Origin: a virus
Virus record (IMG/VR): IMGVR_UViG_3300023223_000422
Coordinates: 1 to 25,125 of that record
Length of the DNA: 25,125 nt
Direction: 5' to 3' (one strand)
The position numbers were made by a program, and so were the translations under genes. This document shows positions 4,962-24,274 of the stretch, piece by piece. The notes beneath the pieces are model-generated. The model saw only the letters and a program-made list of their open reading frames with translations. It searched no databases and was not told where the DNA came from. The first letter of the stretch is position 1. Each line of letters opens with the position of its first letter.

Positions 4962-5957
4962 TTACCTGCCTACTATTTGGGGATTTTGAAAGCCGCCGCC
5001 GCCTAATTGTAATCTTGCCCTAGCTAAATTTGGATCTAAGCCGCCTCCGCCTCCGCTTAAAAATGAAGACCCGCCGCCAAAGCCGCCGCCTAATAAACTA
5101 AGCCCACCGCCTATAAGTGCATTACTGAAAGCATCGCCCCGTTGTTGTTGTGCTTGCGCTTGTTGGGATTCTAATCCAAGTCGTTGACTCTCCAATCCTA
5201 ACAATTGAGGATCAAGCAACGGAGCTTCACGAATTGATTGACCTGCTAAGCGGCCTGAGATACCAAGTTGCTGAGCGCCTGTTCCTGCTGCCTGTCTGGA
5301 TGCTCCCAAGATATTTAAAAATGGATTGATAGCAGCTTGACTTGTTTGCAATCCTAACTGAGCAGCACCACCTGCAAATTGACGGCGTTGGGCTTGTCTT
5401 TGTGTTGCGAATTGATTTCGGCCCAAGATTTCTTGTCCTACTGCAAAACGACCTGCTCCACGTCCACGAGCCCCGGTAGCTGCTCTTGCGGCCTGCTGTG
5501 ATTCTCGGATTTCTTCATCACTAAGACTTCTGCCTAATTGTAATTCAGAAAGCGCCTGTTCCTGTAATGTACCTGTAATATCCTGAGCACCAGCTAAAGC
5601 AGGGGATAGGCCTCTTAAGCCTTCCCTGAACTGTGGGCCGAATCGTTCTAACAAATTTATATCCCCGCCTAAAAATTGTCCTCTTTGTTGAATAAGAGAC
5701 GGGTTGATTTGCTGTTGCAGTAAAGTACTAATACCGCCTTGCGCTCCCTGCAATTGAGCAAGATTGGCTTGCAAAAATTGTGGGTCAAATTCAGCTCTTT
5801 GCTCCAATATCGCTGGGAACTGACGCCGCCGTAAACCTATTGTTTCGTCAGCTAATTCTGAGGCTGCTCTGGGTTGGGGCTGTCTAACATTGCCACGAGC
5901 AAATAAACCACCAATTAATGAACCGCCTCCTATTAATGCTGCTGCTCCAAGTGCCAT
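4962..5957 (-). CDS. Internal virion protein, Gln/Gly-rich, T7 gp14-like in position
   Basis: A 331-aa protein with a short hydrophobic N-terminal helix (residues 2-20, Ala/Gly/Leu), a long Gln-rich helical body (about 50-275) with repeated QQ and QRR patterns, a motif FGPQFREGL near residue 106, and a glycine-rich hydrophobic tail from about 283. An N-terminal membrane-active helix followed by Gln-rich helices is typical of small podoviral ejection proteins that form the first pore in the outer membrane. A strong AGGAGG lies inside the end of the upstream gene, and the first 25 bases overlap that gene. It heads the three-gene ejection block. Confidence 0.65.
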   Translation of the reverse strand: MALGAAALIGGGSLIGGLFARGNVRQPQPRAASELADETIGLRRRQFPAILEQRAEFDPQFLQANLAQLQGAQGGISTLLQQQINPSLIQQRGQFLGGDINLLERFGPQFREGLRGLSPALAGAQDITGTLQEQALSELQLGRSLSDEEIRESQQAARAATGARGRGAGRFAVGQEILGRNQFATQRQAQRRQFAGGAAQLGLQTSQAAINPFLNILGASRQAAGTGAQQLGISGRLAGQSIREAPLLDPQLLGLESQRLGLESQQAQAQQQRGDAFSNALIGGGLSLLGGGFGGGSSFLSGGGGGLDPNLARARLQLGGGGFQNPQIVGR

Positions 5958-6472
5958 AATTCTTGTACCTCCTGTATTTTTTGGGTTACTCTTAAATATT
6001 TTAAAATCTCAAAACGTTCTGCGCTAAAAGCGATATCGCCTAAAATATATTCATGTACTTTTTTAAAGTATTTTTTGTCTAAAAGATTCTCGAATGGGAT
6101 AACAATATTGTGAGTGTTTTTTTCAATTTGTTGTAATCCTGACAAGCACTCATCAATAATATAATTAGCATCTAAAGAATAATTCTTCATCGCCTTTTGA
6201 TATGAAACTCTGCATTCATCAACTGATCTTTTAATGATCAATATCTTAGAATAATTTGACTGCTCTATTACTTCTTCCGGGAATAAACAGAGGCCGCTAT
6301 CACTATCACCAGCAATTAAATCGTCGTGATCTAATGCATGTGCCATTTTATCAAAAGACTTGTACCTTAACAATCCTTCATGATGGCATATAGATAACCC
6401 TGGCATGGTGAAATAGTTTGCAAGCCATGCGGTTTGTGATCTGGGTAACCCTATGATAAAAAACTTATTCAT
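5933..6472 (-). CDS. Sulfotransferase-fold P-loop protein (179 aa)
   Basis: The N-terminus IIGLPRSQTAWL (residues 6-17) matches the 5'-phosphosulfate-binding loop of sulfotransferases (GLPRSGTTWL type). KRSVDECRVSY (81-91) matches the 3'-phosphate loop, with Arg82 and Ser90 in the expected places. At 179 aa it is shorter than typical sulfotransferases but keeps both cofactor elements. It would transfer sulfate from PAPS, or may only bind a nucleotide. It sits between the collar fibre and the ejection genes; its start overlaps the fibre stop (TAATG) and its end overlaps the next gene by 25 bases, so it is coexpressed with virion parts. The substrate is unknown: fibre tyrosines or surface glycans are guesses. 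Confidence 0.7.
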   Translation of the reverse strand: MNKFFIIGLPRSQTAWLANYFTMPGLSICHHEGLLRYKSFDKMAHALDHDDLIAGDSDSGLCLFPEEVIEQSNYSKILIIKRSVDECRVSYQKAMKNYSLDANYIIDECLSGLQQIEKNTHNIVIPFENLLDKKYFKKVHEYILGDIAFSAERFEILKYLRVTQKIQEVQELWHLEQQH

Positions 6473-7263
6473 TATAGTTTGATTATTACATTTGCGACCA
6501 TTGCGGGTGGTGTGTTTGTGTGCGCTGAACCACTGCCTGAAGCATCAACAGTAATTGTGACCGTATGAGTATGAGCCCCGGCGCTACTGGTTGGTAGCGT
6601 TGATGTGGTGGTTCCTAAATCTGCTGTGGGTAATCCTAAATTACCAGCAGCAGCACCGCCGCCTGCATGCGTAAAATAATTATGAGTATGAGCCCCAGCA
6701 GATGCAGCGGTTCCGCCTGATGTAGTATGTGTATGACTTGGACCCTCACCAGCAGTTAAAGCATGTTCTTCAACGCCTCCAAAGGCTGCTAAGGTTGCTC
6801 CGTCAACTTCTGATGCGCTGGCAGATGTTAAGCGTCCAGCAGCAGCCCCGCCCATATCATCTTTACCGAAAAATGAACGGCCTCGTGAATCTGGGGTGGG
6901 CAAACGAGAATCAATATTGAAATCCGCTAAGGCTGATGCACCCCTTGGGATATTGCTACCCGTACTATCCTCTAACTGCAATTCGCTATTAGTCGTTGCA
7001 TCCCATAATAGAGTAAATAAATCAAGTGTGTCTGAATTAGCTCGCTCTGTTGCCCCTGAGCTTGCATTACCTAATGTATTACCTGCACCTAATACATAAC
7101 CTGAAGGCGCTGTAGTACCAAAAAAGGGTAGGGCGATCCCGGTAGGTACAATATCCTCTGAATCAATAGTTGCATTTTGTAGAAAGTCATTGAGCTTTGA
7201 AGGCGTTACAGTTTCGCCTGATACCCAAACTCTCCCCGGTGTGATTGAAATTGTTGTTGCCAT
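6472..7263 (-). CDS. Tail-collar-type fibre with HxH tip motifs
   Basis: A 263-aa tail fibre of the Tail_Collar type. Residues 1-35 form an attachment segment common to short fibres (ITPGRVWVSGETVTPSKLN). About 38-135 is a collar domain with ALPFFGTTAPSGYVLG and the conserved PDSRGRSFFGKDDMGG segment. The distal third is Gly/Ala/Ser/Thr-rich and carries HTH triplets at 177-179, 192-194 and 231-233, plus His199 and His248, and ends with NTPPAMVANVIIKL, close to the usual fibre C-terminus. In T4 gp37 such HxH motifs coordinate iron ions along the trimer needle. The likely role is host receptor contact. It starts two bases after the nozzle gene and ends in a TAATG overlap with the sulfotransferase-fold gene. 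Confidence 0.85.
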   Translation of the reverse strand: MATTISITPGRVWVSGETVTPSKLNDFLQNATIDSEDIVPTGIALPFFGTTAPSGYVLGAGNTLGNASSGATERANSDTLDLFTLLWDATTNSELQLEDSTGSNIPRGASALADFNIDSRLPTPDSRGRSFFGKDDMGGAAAGRLTSASASEVDGATLAAFGGVEEHALTAGEGPSHTHTTSGGTAASAGAHTHNYFTHAGGGAAAGNLGLPTADLGTTTSTLPTSSAGAHTHTVTITVDASGSGSAHTNTPPAMVANVIIKL

Positions 7264-7265
7264 AA

Positions 7266-9818
7266 TTAAGAATATGAATTGTTTGACCGACCAAAATTAG
7301 TGCCTTCTATGGTCAACTGTCTGATGGTTGGTCTTCCTCCGGTAGTATCAATTTGTATTTGGGCTTCTCTTCCCCGTTGAGCTATCCTAAATCGTCGATG
7401 ATGATCGTTATCATCTGTAAAAGTATACGTTGCTAATACGCTTTTGGTATCCGGGTTTATTGTGATTGCAGTAACCTCAAGTGAATCATCTTGATCTGCT
7501 TCAAGTTCTATTGAGCCCCGGTTATATCTGTGGATATCAAAATCCTCATCAAAGGTGTAGCTCCTGGTAATCAATTGCCCCTGTATAGTTACAGGTACAA
7601 AAGGACCGCCGACCGGGCCGATATCATCATCCTCTAATTCCTCATATAATTGTAGAGCACCTTCTTTAGATGTAATAAACAATCTATCTTTACCGTCTTT
7701 TTGAACGACAACAAAATCATCTATGAAAGAACCTTCACCGCCAAATGTATCTATACTTTCCCATTTTTGATTCAAGAAATTATAGACAAATATAATATTA
7801 TTTCTTGTGCTTGCTGCTTTCGTCGATGTACCGAAAACAGTGATGGGTCCGACGGTAGCATTAGTATAAGTAAAACTATTTCTGCTTACTAATGAAATTG
7901 TAACAGTACCATTAAAACCAGCTGGTGTCATACCTGCGATTGTTATTGTATCACCTTCATTGAGAGTGTGATTTTTAACAGTAGTGACTGTCACCGTTGC
8001 ACCGTCCGTTGTCGCAGTCTGATTTTTAAGAATCTTTTCGCCTTCTGGAACTGCTAAATAATATCTATTGTTAAAATAAGTCGCTACGGCTTTATCTATA
8101 ACCTCTTTATTTAAAGAATTTATTTGATCCTCAATAGGCGCTGACAATGGAACATCTTGACCTTTTAAATTAATCTGGGGCGTTACCAGCAAAGAATAAA
8201 CGCCTTGCTCTGAAAGGAATAATAAACGACTGCCAATAACTACTGAGGTTTTGCGGGCCACACATCCAACTTCATCGGTGATCTGAAAAATGCTGCTGTT
8301 TTCTAATGACGGTAATGATATTCCGGTTACCAAATTAATAGAGTTTTTATAAAGCGCTATCAGGTTGTCATTTTGGAAATTATTAAATCCAATTAAAAAA
8401 TCATCTTTACCACGATTGATTCTAAATAAATTGTTAACAGGATCGTACGTTCTATGGTCCCGTAAATCTGATGCAATAAATTCGTCTCTGGCAGAAATCG
8501 TAAAAGTAATATTTGTACTAGTATCTGGACTAACGGGCGTGCCTAAAATCTCATAATCAAATGTGGTTGCAGTAGTATTTGTGATTTCAAATGTACCATT
8601 ATATTCAGCCTCATTTGCCCCATTGATTTCAACTTTGTCATTTATCCCTAACCCATGATTGAAAGCAGCAGTAGCTGTAACAGTTGTACCGCTTAATGTT
8701 AATGATGTTAAATCAGAGGTTGCGTTTTCCATAGGCACAATCACACGAGCTGATGTGTGATAATGTCCAAAAGAGGAAAACGGCATATCAATAAAAGTTG
8801 CAACACTACGAGCACCCATTAATTTAAATTGCGGTATCTTTACTGAAGTGATTGTACCTGTTGCCGGGGTAACTGGTGTAGTCGCAATAAAATAAGTGAA
8901 TTCGTCAAGCGCCGTAACACGGATGGAAAACTGCCCATTATAATCTGCTTGATCAGCACCAGCAATTAAGATTTCGTCGCCAGTTTGATATTTATGCTCA
9001 TCCTGAGTCGTTACAGTTACCAATATTCCTACTCGGGTAATTGAAAGTACGGTTTCAAGATCAGTATTAGAAATATTACCGTCCCATTCTAATTGTCGTA
9101 ACGCTCTCCCTCGAAAAATTATTAAGCCATCATTAACTTGTTCAACATCTGTACTACCAAATATTTCAGCTTCTTCACCAGCGGGATAAAATATCTCAAT
9201 AGGGTTTGCGAGATCATCAGGATTAATCAATATTGTTTTATCAAGTGTAACTTGAGCAACATATTCTTTATTAGTTAATGAGTCAGAAAATCTTGTTGAT
9301 GCAAAAACGCCATCGCTTGCATCTAATAAAACAGGGTGGTTTGTCGCTGTAATAGTTCCAGTTGCAGGTGTAGAAGGTGTGCCCGGGACTGTATAAGTAA
9401 ATACTGTGGCTGAAGGTGTAGTGGTAATGACCGTAATAAGGAATTCACCGTTATAATCAGTCTCGACGGCCCCAAGTATTTCAACAGTGTCGCCATCCTC
9501 ATAAGTATCAATTGGAGTACCTGATAATGTGACTGTTGCTGTTGATCCTGATCGAGTGATTGAACTGACAGCCTCGACTGTTCCTAAATCAAATGATAAT
9601 GTTAAAGGCTCTTCACCTGTGAATAAATCAGCAGTAAGCCTATCGATTCCTTTACGGGGTTGCGCTGCCTTGCTTTCTGATCGCATGTTCTGAGCGAATC
9701 TTGTAATCCCTGGTTCTAAAGAAGTAGGGCGGGAGCGAGTATCGAAGCCAATATATCCCGTGTCGCCATCGGTTAAAATGCCGTCATCTAATTGCCCTCC
9801 TGATCGGTAACGTGTCAT
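7266..9818 (-). CDS. Tail nozzle (beta-propeller-like) with four inserted Ig-like modules
   Basis: An 850-aa virion protein. The N-terminus (residues 20-60, with FAQNMRSESKAAQPRKGID) and the segments DEVGCVARKTSVVIGSRLLFLSEQ-GVYSLL (about 515-543), NRYYLAVPEG (584-593) and NNIIFVYNFLNQKWESIDTF (673-692) resemble the blade strands of podoviral nozzle proteins such as P22 gp10 and T7 gp12. Four copies of a roughly 70-75-residue module interrupt this scaffold at about 84-158, 256-325, 369-442 and 600-668. Each has a YNG- or FNG-type core and most end near PATGTIT. The modules probably decorate the outside of the tail. The ATG overlaps the stop of the holin-like gene (TAATG). The nozzle assignment is inferred from motif pattern and location. 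Confidence 0.7.
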   Translation of the reverse strand: MTRYRSGGQLDDGILTDGDTGYIGFDTRSRPTSLEPGITRFAQNMRSESKAAQPRKGIDRLTADLFTGEEPLTLSFDLGTVEAVSSITRSGSTATVTLSGTPIDTYEDGDTVEILGAVETDYNGEFLITVITTTPSATVFTYTVPGTPSTPATGTITATNHPVLLDASDGVFASTRFSDSLTNKEYVAQVTLDKTILINPDDLANPIEIFYPAGEEAEIFGSTDVEQVNDGLIIFRGRALRQLEWDGNISNTDLETVLSITRVGILVTVTTQDEHKYQTGDEILIAGADQADYNGQFSIRVTALDEFTYFIATTPVTPATGTITSVKIPQFKLMGARSVATFIDMPFSSFGHYHTSARVIVPMENATSDLTSLTLSGTTVTATAAFNHGLGINDKVEINGANEAEYNGTFEITNTTATTFDYEILGTPVSPDTSTNITFTISARDEFIASDLRDHRTYDPVNNLFRINRGKDDFLIGFNNFQNDNLIALYKNSINLVTGISLPSLENSSIFQITDEVGCVARKTSVVIGSRLLFLSEQGVYSLLVTPQINLKGQDVPLSAPIEDQINSLNKEVIDKAVATYFNNRYYLAVPEGEKILKNQTATTDGATVTVTTVKNHTLNEGDTITIAGMTPAGFNGTVTISLVSRNSFTYTNATVGPITVFGTSTKAASTRNNIIFVYNFLNQKWESIDTFGGEGSFIDDFVVVQKDGKDRLFITSKEGALQLYEELEDDDIGPVGGPFVPVTIQGQLITRSYTFDEDFDIHRYNRGSIELEADQDDSLEVTAITINPDTKSVLATYTFTDDNDHHRRFRIAQRGREAQIQIDTTGGRPTIRQLTIEGTNFGRSNNSYS

Positions 9819-14296: not shown

Positions 14297-15121
14297 TTAT
14301 CTTACTCCCTCTAATCTTGTACTTGTTCTTGATGGTAGTTGCTGTTGCTGCTGACGTTCTAAACGATCAACTTCTATGTCTAGTACTGCTTCAGCTTCTA
14401 AACGTTTTGATTGTGATTTATTTTGTTGCCCTTCAGCTGCCAAGAAATCTGCAAAACATGCTGTTGCTAAATAATCCTGAAAAACAAACTCAACTGTTGC
14501 GGCTAAAGTTCCGTCAAATACAGTTTCATTTGCTCTATAAAAAATGAATGCGGTTGTTTTGGTTGATGTTATTGTTCCCGTCGCTGTATCTACAGGATCA
14601 GACGCCATTGTATATTCAAATGCGGTCGTAGAAGTTACAGTGATAACAAATGTACCGTTATAAGCTGCTTCATTTGCTCCTGCGATTATTGCTGAATCGC
14701 CTGTCAAATAGTTATGATCAACTGAAGTCGTGCATGTTGCCAATGTTCCAACACTCACAAGGGTAGCTACAGTTAAGCTATCTCCTTCTGCTGCGTCTGG
14801 GACAAAAACGCCGTCGCCTCGGATTGAATAACGTAAGGGCTTTGAATTTGAACTTGTGAAAGGATCGTCCGTAAAGACATCCAAAATATCTGCTATTGCT
14901 GTATCAGTAGAAAGATCAATAAATCCACTTGAATCAGGAACAAAACTATTTAAGGCAGTTGAAAATGGCCATTCTGCTCTTGCCCATGCAAACCTGTAAT
15001 TACGATTAAAGAATTGAATGAAAACAGTCGCATCAACAGGGATAATTGCATCAGGATCTAAACCCGCCAAAGCTGCGTATTTTTTTCTGACTTCTTCAAA
15101 TGTTGTGGTACGTGTTGCCAT
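14297..15121 (-). CDS. Head-tail adaptor (neck) protein with an inserted Ig-like module
   Basis: A 274-aa protein whose two ends look like a podoviral adaptor. The N-terminal helical part (residues 1-60, TTFEEVRKKYAALAG and the FFNRNYRFAWARAEWPF segment) is matched by a C-terminal helical part (about 208-262) beginning EFVFQDYLATACFADFLAAEG and running into a charged helix with VDRLERQQQQQ. Between them, at about 116-188, sits an Ig-like module (DHNYLTGDSAIIAGANEAAY, then NGTF) of the same type as the four in the nozzle. The adaptor would bridge portal and tail nozzle. It begins in a TAATG overlap with the preceding gene. The adaptor role is inferred from the helical ends and gene order. Confidence 0.6.
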   Translation of the reverse strand: MATRTTTFEEVRKKYAALAGLDPDAIIPVDATVFIQFFNRNYRFAWARAEWPFSTALNSFVPDSSGFIDLSTDTAIADILDVFTDDPFTSSNSKPLRYSIRGDGVFVPDAAEGDSLTVATLVSVGTLATCTTSVDHNYLTGDSAIIAGANEAAYNGTFVITVTSTTAFEYTMASDPVDTATGTITSTKTTAFIFYRANETVFDGTLAATVEFVFQDYLATACFADFLAAEGQQNKSQSKRLEAEAVLDIEVDRLERQQQQQLPSRTSTRLEGVR

Positions 15122-15588: not shown

Positions 15589-16053
15589 TTAGCCTACTGT
15601 GAGGCTGGTCAAATCGAATAGATGTAAATAAACCCAGACTTCGCCAACATCGATATCGACAAGAGATTTTGCCGACTGTGACCCAAATACTAGATCAACG
15701 GTGTCGACTATCTCATAAGCGAACGGTAATGTTGCTACTGAGTTTGCAGTTATTTTAGCCAAGACTTCAGTGCCATTAACATTTAACTGTGTTGCTGTAA
15801 GAAATCGGTTCGGATCATTACCGTCACCAACTTCTAACAATACAGTGTTAAAGGCTCCATCGCTGGCGTCTTCAAAAGGCGTAATCAAACGCATTGCACA
15901 ATTAGAAACTGCACTACCAATAACCGTTGGGGCTACCTCGATAGTTTGAGCTGTGTTTGCTGCTGTTTCAGTTAAGTCTGCTGCCAAGACTTTAATCACG
16001 TGGGTAAACCCGCTGACAGAGGCTTCATTTTCGGTTAATTTAAGTACTCTCAT
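15589..16053 (-). CDS. Probable capsid decoration protein (154 aa)
   Basis: A beta-rich, cysteine-poor protein directly after the major capsid gene. Its middle segment (residues about 57-92, TPFEDASDGAFNTVLLEVGD, then RFLTATQLN) is a pattern common in phage proteins encoded at this position. The N-terminus MRVLKLTENEASVSG is short and polar, and the C-terminus is hydrophobic. A clean AAAAAGGA ribosome site precedes the ATG. Decoration or cement is the likely role because it is the last gene before the capsid-block terminator. A head-completion role cannot be excluded. Confidence 0.6.
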   Translation of the reverse strand: MRVLKLTENEASVSGFTHVIKVLAADLTETAANTAQTIEVAPTVIGSAVSNCAMRLITPFEDASDGAFNTVLLEVGDGNDPNRFLTATQLNVNGTEVLAKITANSVATLPFAYEIVDTVDLVFGSQSAKSLVDIDVGEVWVYLHLFDLTSLTVG

Positions 16054-22256: not shown

Positions 22257-22458
22257 ACAACAATCTCATTTTATATAATAAACGGTCCAGAAGGTTTTTT
22301 ACGGTGATGCGATCTACCCCACAATGTTCCGCTATCTCTTCATTGCTATAAGGACGAATTGTTCTATTAGAAAATAAATAAGTTAAAGCCGCCCAAAATC
22401 TATCACTTTTTTCAATGACTGTTTCTTCACGCTTTAAAAAACCTCTGGGATCTCTCAT
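22249..22458 (-). CDS. Small helix-turn-helix protein, small-terminase candidate (69 aa)
   Basis: Residues about 37-67 (YSNEEIAEHCGVDRITVKNL, then LDRLLYKMRLL) form a clear helix-turn-helix. The first 35 residues are basic with a short hydrophobic helix (FWAALTYLF). The gene overlaps its upstream neighbour by ATGA and terL by eight bases, so the three are made together. A tiny DNA-binding protein beside terL is where a small terminase subunit is expected, but most are longer and carry an oligomerisation domain, so a regulatory protein is an alternative. No family is claimed. Confidence 0.6.
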   Translation of the reverse strand: MRDPRGFLKREETVIEKSDRFWAALTYLFSNRTIRPYSNEEIAEHCGVDRITVKNLLDRLLYKMRLLCE

Positions 22459-22841
22459 ATTATCGAGGTATAAAGATCATCACTTATATGATTGATTAAA
22501 ATCATATTGCCCGGTCGGTACAGTCGCCGCATTTTCTGCTTAACTATAACCCTACAGACAACACCATTTACATCAGCCAGCACCAAGCGTTTATTATTGG
22601 GCAACTTGACTATCTTAACCTCTTTGGGCCATTCAGAAGAATCAGGAGTAAATTCGATTTCCTGCTGGTCAAGGGCCTCTTTGATTATGTCGACGCCTTT
22701 GGGGTATATCAGCCATGTATCGTCGGCATTGGACCGCCTGTAGTGCTTCCGCTTGATTAAATGCTTTGTAAGGACTGCATGTAACCGTGTAGGCGATATT
22801 TTAAGTTGCTCCGCTAAGTCTGTAAATAAGGTCGACCGCAT
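22455..22841 (-). CDS. DNA-binding protein, small-terminase candidate (128 aa)
   Basis: Residues about 8-28 (DLAEQLKISPTRLHAVLTKH) form a helix-turn-helix, followed by a basic stretch (KRKHYRRSN) and a compact C-terminal domain (about 70-128) with alternating strands. The ATG has no clear ribosome site, and a palindromic CATATC array begins about 14 bases upstream, which could be its operator or the packaging site. Placed first in the packaging operon, it could be the small terminase, an autoregulator, or both. The motif and site are visible; the link between them is inference. Confidence 0.55.
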   Translation of the reverse strand: MRSTLFTDLAEQLKISPTRLHAVLTKHLIKRKHYRRSNADDTWLIYPKGVDIIKEALDQQEIEFTPDSSEWPKEVKIVKLPNNKRLVLADVNGVVCRVIVKQKMRRLYRPGNMILINHISDDLYTSII

Positions 22842-22894
22842 TTTGTAATATCAACATATCATGATATGATGATATGACAATGCAACAAAAAAAA
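22842..22894 (-). promoter_or_regulatory. CATATC half-site array, operator or packaging-site candidate
   Basis: Positions 22855-22868 (CATATCATGATATG) are a perfect 14-bp palindrome, extended by ATGATATG to 22876, so three CATATC half-sites lie in 22 bp. On the minus strand TTGTCA and, 16 bases on, TATGTT are possible -35 and -10 boxes overlapping the array, with the start codon close behind. Autorepression by one of the two helix-turn-helix genes, or recognition by a small terminase, would both fit. The promoter match is weak; the repeats are certain. Confidence 0.5.
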
Positions 22895-23371
22895 CTATTT
22901 ATTTAAGTCAGGATCTAAAAAGCCCATATATTCTTCATGGGCTAAATGCTTATGACCCTGAATTTCATGATGTAAAATGATCAATCGTTCATAATTATCT
23001 ATAGCCTTTTTAGCATTAGAAATTGCTGATAAGGATAGAATAACCATCAATATCCAGACGATACCCAATAAATCTATTAAATGACCATTAATGCCTCTAA
23101 ATAAATACCAAATAACTAAGCTTATAGATATATAAGTCACTATTCTACATCGTATTATATATTTAATATAATAAGTAATGGAAGAGTTAAAATATTCTAA
23201 ATTCCATTCGCCTTCATATTTTAAACGCTTTTTTGACTGAGATAAATTATAAGCGCTAATCGGTAGAGTTATAGCTATAAGCGAAAATGTAAACAATGCT
23301 GAAAAAATAGGGCTAACCGCACCAGTTATCCAGTATACAATACACCCAAATAATAGCGTTAATCCGATCAT
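22895..23371 (-). CDS. Small polytopic membrane protein of unknown function (158 aa)
   Basis: Four probable transmembrane helices: about residues 2-20 and 22-43 as a tight pair, then 74-92 and 98-118. A basic loop after the first pair contains SQSKKRLKYEGEW. The C-terminal 40 residues are soluble, helical and His/Glu-rich (HHEIQGHKHLAHEEYMGFLD). No family recognised. The gene is divergent from the RadC-like gene and separated from the packaging genes by the CATATC array. The AT-rich sequence and isolated position suggest an accessory gene, for example a membrane-acting exclusion or defence factor. Only weak start signals are visible (AAGTGAA before the ATG). Confidence 0.55.
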   Translation of the reverse strand: MIGLTLLFGCIVYWITGAVSPIFSALFTFSLIAITLPISAYNLSQSKKRLKYEGEWNLEYFNSSITYYIKYIIRCRIVTYISISLVIWYLFRGINGHLIDLLGIVWILMVILSLSAISNAKKAIDNYERLIILHHEIQGHKHLAHEEYMGFLDPDLNK

Positions 23372-23556
23372 TTCACTTGAATTTCCTATATGTTCCTATA
23401 TCTTGCATATTGAAGTATATATTAGGATATATTTTAGGGGCTGCGCAACACCCTTTTAGAAAAAAATCATTTGCCTCGGCATTCTTAGTTCATCCCATTT
23501 TGAAGTAGTAGGGATGGTTGCGCACTAAGGGTGTCGGGGCATTTTGGTAACTAGAC
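23372..23556. promoter_or_regulatory. Divergent intergenic region with tandem and inverted repeats
   Basis: This is the 185-bp gap between the membrane protein gene (minus) and the RadC-like gene (plus). TTCCTATAT occurs twice (383-391 and 393-401 after 23000). A weak plus-strand promoter candidate is TTGCAT at 23403-23408 and TATATT at 23428-23433 (19-bp spacing). TGCGCAA (23442-23448) is inverted at 23518-23524, and ACACCCTT (23448-23455) is inverted at 23527-23534, and these pairs interlock rather than nest. CATCCC/GGGATG forms a further hairpin (23491-23516). This looks like a regulated divergent promoter region. No factor is known. Confidence 0.5.
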
Positions 23557-23979
23557 ATGAATATAAAAATGAAGATTATACGCGATGAAGAGCACGCAAA
23601 AATAATAGTAAATAAGAGCCCTGAAGTATTAATACAATATTTCAATGATATACCAAGGGGCGAACATAGCAATGAATATTGGTTGCTATTATTCTCTGAA
23701 GTTAAAGGAGAAACAGAGGGTTATGTATTCCCGATGAATGAGACAATGAATTCCAGGCAAGTCTTTGGAATCGCTCAACTTGAGAATGCAGAATCAATCA
23801 TTATCGTTGGATATCATGAAAGAGCATTAGAACCCGATGCAAAAGAGGTTGTTGCTATCCAGGCATTATTAGCAGTAGGCGAATTCCTTGGTATACCCAT
23901 TCAAGATTTCCTGATTATCGGAAAAACAGATACTGACGCCTATTATTCGTTTAAAGAACGTCAGTTGATTAATAACTAA
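23557..23979 (+). CDS. RadC-like JAB domain protein with a degenerate active site (140 aa)
   Basis: The only plus-strand gene well supported in the window. The C-terminal half follows the RadC/JAB pattern: SRQVFGIAQLENAESIIIVG (residues 66-85), then EPDAKEVVAIQALLAVGEF, LGIPIQDFLIIG and YYSFKERQLI, matching the usual REVF, LG(I)-(L)LDH-(L/I)IIG and Y-S(F)-E-x-(G)L features. In canonical RadC/JAMM proteins HxHPSG and a later SxxD supply metal ligands. Here the aligned place reads VGYHER and the Ser/Asp places are Asp94 and Glu97, so a normal metalloprotease site is unlikely. The N-terminal part (SPEVLIQYF, then EYWLLLF) also fits the family. No strong Shine-Dalgarno is visible and the ATG at 23569 is an alternative start. 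A strong terminator follows. Confidence 0.75.
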   Translation: MNIKMKIIRDEEHAKIIVNKSPEVLIQYFNDIPRGEHSNEYWLLLFSEVKGETEGYVFPMNETMNSRQVFGIAQLENAESIIIVGYHERALEPDAKEVVAIQALLAVGEFLGIPIQDFLIIGKTDTDAYYSFKERQLINN

Positions 23980-24002
23980 ACGCCTTATAGTGGCATAAGC
24001 TG

Positions 24003-24031
24003 AGGGCCGTCTGTAATGGGCGGCCCTTTTT
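24003..24031 (+). terminator. Strong rho-independent terminator after the RadC-like gene
   Basis: AGGGCCGTC (24003-24011) pairs with GGCGGCCCT (24019-24027), nine pairs with one G-T wobble, a seven-base loop and a run of T residues (24027-24031). It lies 24 bases after the stop codon. It closes the single-gene plus-strand cassette and faces the minus-strand genes. Confidence 0.9.
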
Positions 24032-24040
24032 ATGAACAAA

Positions 24041-24071
24041 AAAAAGCTACCAGCAAACGAATCACTGGTAA
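24041..24071 (-). terminator. Second minus-strand terminator
   Basis: Read on the minus strand, TTACCAG pairs with CTGGTAG (7 bp with one G-T pair; plus-strand arms 24047-24053 and 24065-24071), followed by a run of nine T residues (A-run at 24037-24045 on the plus strand). It sits about 95 bases beyond the first minus-strand terminator and next to the plus-strand terminator, so it acts as a second barrier. Confidence 0.7.
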
Positions 24072-24165
24072 CCTTAACTAGCCATTTTGCATTGCTTATA
24101 GTGATGCAAATCAAATTTATAAAAGTAGTCAAAAGTGATAGTATAGACGTGGCAACTAAAAATGC

Positions 24166-24212
24166 AAAAAAAAGAGGCTAATTTAAGTCAACTTTCCCTC
24201 AATTAGCCCCTC
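24166..24212 (-). terminator. Strong rho-independent terminator of the right-hand operon
   Basis: On the minus strand GAGG(G)GCTAATT (24212-24201) pairs with AATTAGCCTC (24183-24174) across a 17-base loop, followed by eight T residues (24173-24166). It lies 62 bases after the stop of the 116-aa gene. It should end transcripts of the small right-hand genes before the RadC-like gene. Confidence 0.85.
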
Positions 24213-24274
24213 AAAACAATATATACCGTCTATGCATATGAGTATAAATGCCTAAATATCTGGTAATGTCAAGG

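Follow-up and report, generated by a model that had tools for sequence, protein, structure and literature searches.

A solo RadC-like JAB domain protein with an incomplete JAMM motif encoded by a viral contig

In JAMM enzymes, two His residues and an Asp bind zinc, a Glu acts as the base and orients the water, and a Ser stabilises the intermediate (PMC300881). The JAB/MPN fold is also found in eukaryotic MPN-minus domains (Csn6, Rpn8, and ABRO1/KIAA0157), in which the JAMM motif is incomplete. Such domains are often found paired with MPN-plus enzymes, and the MPN-minus domain of Csn6 is dispensable for activity (PMC3431379). For RadC, nucleic-acid processing was argued for and a groove for the ubiquitin tail argued against by Iyer et al. 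(PMC5512222), and the sensitivity of E. coli radC mutants to DNA damage is given as normal in a 2025 review (PMC11981726).

The RadC-like protein studied here, P0001, was compared with these systems. Its best full-length relative was WP_234875817.1 from Terrisporobacter petrolearius plasmid pTPHSE1 (33% identity, 97% of the query, E 1e-8), which resembles P0001 in length, fold and one-domain architecture. However, WP_234875817.1 carries the full HNHPSG..PSxxD, whereas P0001 has GYHERA..PDAKE and two loop deletions. The top fold match of the P0001 model was the C-terminal domain of Chlorobium tepidum RadC (PDB 2QLC, TM 0.68-0.81), which shares 22-24% identity with P0001 and, unlike it, has a complete JAMM motif. 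The MPN-minus domains are like P0001 in combining the JAB/MPN fold with an incomplete JAMM motif, but they belong to a different clade and showed only weak structural similarity (E 0.008, TM ~0.4).

Location and surroundings of the RadC-like gene

The window, that is, the whole stretch of DNA analysed, is a 25,125-bp viral record of IMG/VR and is probably a fragment. Its late genes, among them a packaging and head module (terminase, portal, and major head protein), all lie on the minus strand. The closest named phage is Phage C75C1 (OQ984151). The gene encoding P0001 adjoins the packaging genes, and the following features were assigned to it and its surroundings.

23557..23979, plus strand: gene for P0001, a RadC-like solo JAB domain protein of 140 aa with a degenerate JAMM motif (ORF call, profile and fold matches)
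24002..24031, plus strand: intrinsic terminator of the P0001 gene, stem-loop plus T5 (z = -3.4)
23372..23556, no strand: divergent intergenic region common to P0001 and the membrane-protein gene (gene calls, folding)
23472..23541, no strand: extended imperfect hairpin whose end lies 15 nt ahead of the P0001 start codon (folding z-scores)
22895..23371, minus strand: gene divergent from P0001, whose hydrophobic product of 158 aa has several probable membrane segments and no assigned family

The open reading frame of P0001 was intact, with 140 codons and neither stops nor frameshifts, and its codon use resembled that of the late genes of the contig. It is a real gene. Gene calls across the 25-kb contig placed it as the sole plus-strand gene, every other called gene being on the minus strand, and this agrees with the sequence-only reading, which had described it as opposite to all other genes. 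The strong terminator attributed to the gene by that reading was also recovered (GAGGGCCGTCTGTAATGGGCGGCCCTTTTT), and 0 of 200 shuffles were as stable. The structured intergenic region said to be shared with an unknown membrane protein was found as well, measuring 185 nt and including the hairpin. The z value of the hairpin as DNA was -5.4 for the chosen stretch, and that of the entire intergenic region as RNA was -2.85. A search of the hairpin against Rfam gave no match that reached the gathering score, and none of the weaker ones was meaningful. No significant DNA relatives of the hairpin or the intergenic region were found in phages or plasmids, where a mobile repeat was looked for. The hairpin was also considered as attC-like, but its box sequences, inspected by eye, did not fit and this reading was rejected. 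Upstream of P0001, sigma-70-like sites were present at chance number and none was convincing. The membrane-protein gene matched no Pfam or PHROG family, and the search made for it returned no relatives.

Homologues of P0001, the membrane-protein gene and the further upstream genes were detected in none of nine related viral records and Phage C75C1, most of these records being short fragments. L005, L010 and C75C1 extend upstream of the packaging genes, where they carry other genes. Such a layout fits an accessory region. A moron-like cassette had been proposed, and such a position was supported by the opposite strand, the separate terminator and the lack of a detected counterpart in the related phages, mostly short records. 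A terminase search for a prophage host gave one weak and uninformative match.

Other features were observed in the window and in related phages. Two tandem terminators (24211-24173 and 24075-24043) were found on the minus strand of the window within 24030-24215, with a sigma-70-like site (24168-24140, minus) between them; this region may encode a small RNA of ~100 nt. A palindrome at 22842-22894 (TTGTAATATCAACATATCA / TGATATGATGATATGACAA, 89% complementary) lies directly upstream of the HTH gene 22455-22841 and is a possible operator. Different late proteins encoded on the minus strand at 7266-9818 and 14297-15121 have a common repeated module of ~45 aa (...YNGTF.ITV....F.Y......PATGTIT), and the larger of them matched Pfam E1_FCCH at 29.8 bits. 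Window gene 15589-16053, present in one copy, has two adjacent paralogues in the related phage L004, at 6557-7024 and 7028-7552. In the large terminase of L010 (4723-7404, plus strand; same in L008), the P-loop (GGNR/C...HN/SGKS) is interrupted by an intein-like insertion of 326 aa (nt 5029-6006). An HNH endonuclease gene (5129-5872, minus strand; Pfam HNH_3, E 2e-10) lies entirely within this insertion on the opposite strand, both strands being open. An intein with an antisense-coded endonuclease, as suggested for L010 and L008, would be unusual.

RadC-like identity and state of the JAMM site

P0001 matched Pfam PF04002 (RadC) with an E value of 5.5e-9 (36.5 bits, above the curated cut-off of 22.1), PHROG 10276 with 1.6e-7, and the sequence of the RadC structure 2QLC with 0.0022. 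With 70 aligned viral relatives as input, AF2 gave a model with a pLDDT of 81 and a pTM of 0.77; single-sequence prediction failed (pLDDT 47), so this model depends on the aligned RadC sequences. In a Foldseek search with this model, 2QLC was the first hit (E 4e-8), followed by the far weaker BRCC36/KIAA0157 and cytidine deaminases, which is the expected JAB-fold neighbourhood. The RadC-like identity proposed from the letters was therefore borne out by Pfam, PHROG, the 2QLC sequence and the modelled fold. On the other hand, P0001 scored far below the RadC equivalog cut-offs (27.9 bits vs 180 for NF000642 and 22.8 bits vs 133.85 for TIGR00608). It has no N-terminal HhH part, and the matches to these two models begin at profile position 139-146 of 212-218. 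P0001 is a solo RadC-like JAB domain.

The reference JAMM motif was E...HxHPSG..PSxxD, and column counts were taken from an alignment of 71 RadC-like sequences (P0001 vs 70 relatives). The positions of the motif in P0001 were as follows.

23674..23676, plus strand: Glu40, at the JAMM catalytic Glu position, kept (E in 69 of 70 aligned relatives; role from PMC300881)
23809..23811, plus strand: Gly85, replacing the first zinc His (H in 70 of 70 relatives)
23815..23817, plus strand: His87, second zinc His, kept (H in 69 of 70 relatives)
23836..23838, plus strand: Asp94, replacing the JAMM Ser (S in 69 of 70 relatives)
23845..23847, plus strand: Glu97, a conservative replacement of the zinc Asp (D in 70 of 70 relatives)

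The residue alignments given earlier, with HNH at G85 Y86 H87, Ser at D94 and Asp at E97, were right. In place of the two His and one Asp that serve as zinc ligands in JAMM/MPN-plus enzymes, P0001 has G85, H87 and E97. Its motif is incomplete, with HERA for HPSG and no HNHPSG signature; the VHP loop adjoining HNHPSG was deleted, and the His87-Pro93 loop was one residue shorter. A nearly invariant Thr was replaced by Ile101 and the conserved DH by DF (D117-F118), while Pro93, Asp117 and Ser131 were kept. The metal ligands had been described as missing. This holds for the first His, which is lost in G85, but H87 is kept, the change from Asp to E97 is conservative, and the catalytic Glu40 is retained. 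The aligned residues thus indicate that the JAMM site of P0001 is damaged, less completely than the sequence-only reading states.

The loss of conserved columns is beyond chance. P0001 keeps 16 of the 38 columns conserved in at least 75% of the 71 RadC-like sequences, compared with a family median of 36; 20 are kept in L051, a viral sequence considered below, and at least 32 in every other sequence. Hydrophobic residues were found at 26 of 31 core columns (hypergeometric P 1e-6), in a test that reuses the RadC alignment and so favours matching, whereas only 8 of 22 invariant polar, Gly or Pro columns were kept. This is consistent with the earlier view of a JAB/RadC scaffold retained with the catalytic signature lost. 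Since the losses hit polar columns and the hydrophobicity of the core was kept, a folded non-catalytic protein would fit better than random decay.

Rarity of JAMM loss among viral relatives

HxH..S..D was kept in 80 of 80 viral RadC-like loci, which were fetched by similarity and by patterns outside the JAMM motif. Because these loci were those that scored best against a canonical query, a second viral sample was collected with a DNA pattern independent of the JAMM motif (R-E-[IVM]-F..A...N-A..[IVM][IVM]). All 116 RadC-like proteins of this sample, which overlaps with the first, also kept HxH..S..D. The JAMM loss of P0001 is exceptional among its viral relatives.

The pattern GIxxxDF..IxG gave 38 loci, among which only L051 and L055, representing one lineage, were RadC-like. 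This viral lineage shows a different JAMM loss, from Glu to Ser and from the second His to Asn, and its protein still matches RadC strongly (92 bits). This protein resembles P0001 in being RadC-like and phage-encoded and in combining a broken JAMM motif with DF for DH; unlike P0001, it retains HNNPSG and PSxxD. In the tree, P0001 and L051 had the longest tip branches of all, and the L051/L055 lineage and P0001 were not close. ATPase-like and VWA-type genes were seen by eye near the RadC-like gene of L051 (5042-5482).

Relatives sharing the substitutions of P0001, which had been named as a check on the sequence-only reading, were found in neither viral nor prokaryotic genome collections. Peptide patterns returned no close relative with the same substitutions from viral and prokaryotic genome contigs, and the alignment query returned no close relative. 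The only locus recovered with the DNA pattern RxxF..A..NA..[IVM][IVM][IVM]x(not C-starting codon)xH lay in an unrelated tail-like gene and matched by chance.

Possible roles of the protein

Because the core is kept and the polar site is damaged, a non-catalytic role in binding is the most likely reading of P0001, if a tentative one. P0001 would have given up ordinary JAMM zinc catalysis and retained the fold. An active RadC-like JAB protein, belonging to the host or to a rival element, may have in P0001 a partner or competitor without catalysis of its own, which would either pair with that protein or occupy its nucleic-acid or protein substrate, in parallel to the MPN-minus domains that accompany MPN-plus enzymes. 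The independent L051/L055 lineage, which lost other JAMM residues yet keeps a strong RadC match, speaks for binding; the retention of Glu40 and His87 and the conservative Glu97 speak against it, as a protein with a structural role only would have no use for them. No second JAB gene that could serve as a partner was found on the 25,125-bp contig, pairing of the MPN-plus/MPN-minus sort is not established for RadC in the papers cited here, and the dispensability of the Csn6 MPN-minus domain likewise counts against a binding role. By analogy, P0001 could be a RadC pseudoenzyme, a phage counterpart of MPN-minus domains that pairs or competes with active RadC-like proteins during infection, but this more specific proposal is doubtful.

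As the JAMM site was lost only in part, metal binding via His87, Glu97, Asp94 and Glu40 may remain, and P0001 might be a divergent RadC-like enzyme that holds metal in a shifted site. The kept catalytic Glu40 and second His, the conservative change of Asp to Glu, the acidic Asp94 at the Ser position and the conserved Asp117 and Ser131 are in line with such remodelling. However, Gly stands where the first His would be and the vicinity offers no other His, the His87-Pro93 loop is shorter by one residue and the VHP loop deleted, and Thr101 to Ile and DH to DF (Phe118) take away further conserved residues. A remodelled enzyme appears somewhat unlikely. The very long branch and the many invariant residues lost could instead reflect decay, in which a once active phage RadC-like gene is drifting and not yet broken by a stop; the failure to find relatives and the absence of the gene from the related phages examined would agree. 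Against this, phage genomes shed useless genes fast, and here the 140-codon frame is open without stops or frameshifts, codon usage is in line with late genes, and the strong terminator and the hydrophobic core pattern are kept. We consider decay improbable.

The accessory placement and the non-catalytic scaffold would also fit a counter-defence decoy, an inactive JAB that would bind a host immune component and block it, for instance a ubiquitin-like protein or the JAB deconjugase of an anti-phage system, and mobile elements do have RadC domains in their conflict proteins (PMC5512222). But JABs of the RadC clade were argued to be without a groove for the ubiquitin tail (PMC5512222), and P0001 matched no defence or anti-defence family. 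At E <= 1, the only PADLOC match among P0001 and its neighbours was a weak one to the HTH gene, and the RadC literature (PMC5512222, PMC11981726) proposes nucleic-acid processing with no demonstrated anti-host function. A decoy role is the least probable of these readings, and the part in countering host systems suggested by the sequence-only reading is speculative and got no support from any test.

Phages and plasmids commonly carry RadC-like JAB genes. Folded RadC-like proteins without the catalytic motif would be useful natural mutants, since what they bind would point to the substrate or partner of RadC, and the rarity of JAMM-degenerate versions among the sampled viral sequences makes each of them informative. 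If P0001 is indeed a RadC pseudoenzyme, it would be a prokaryotic parallel to the eukaryotic MPN-plus/MPN-minus pairs and would offer a handle on the role of RadC.
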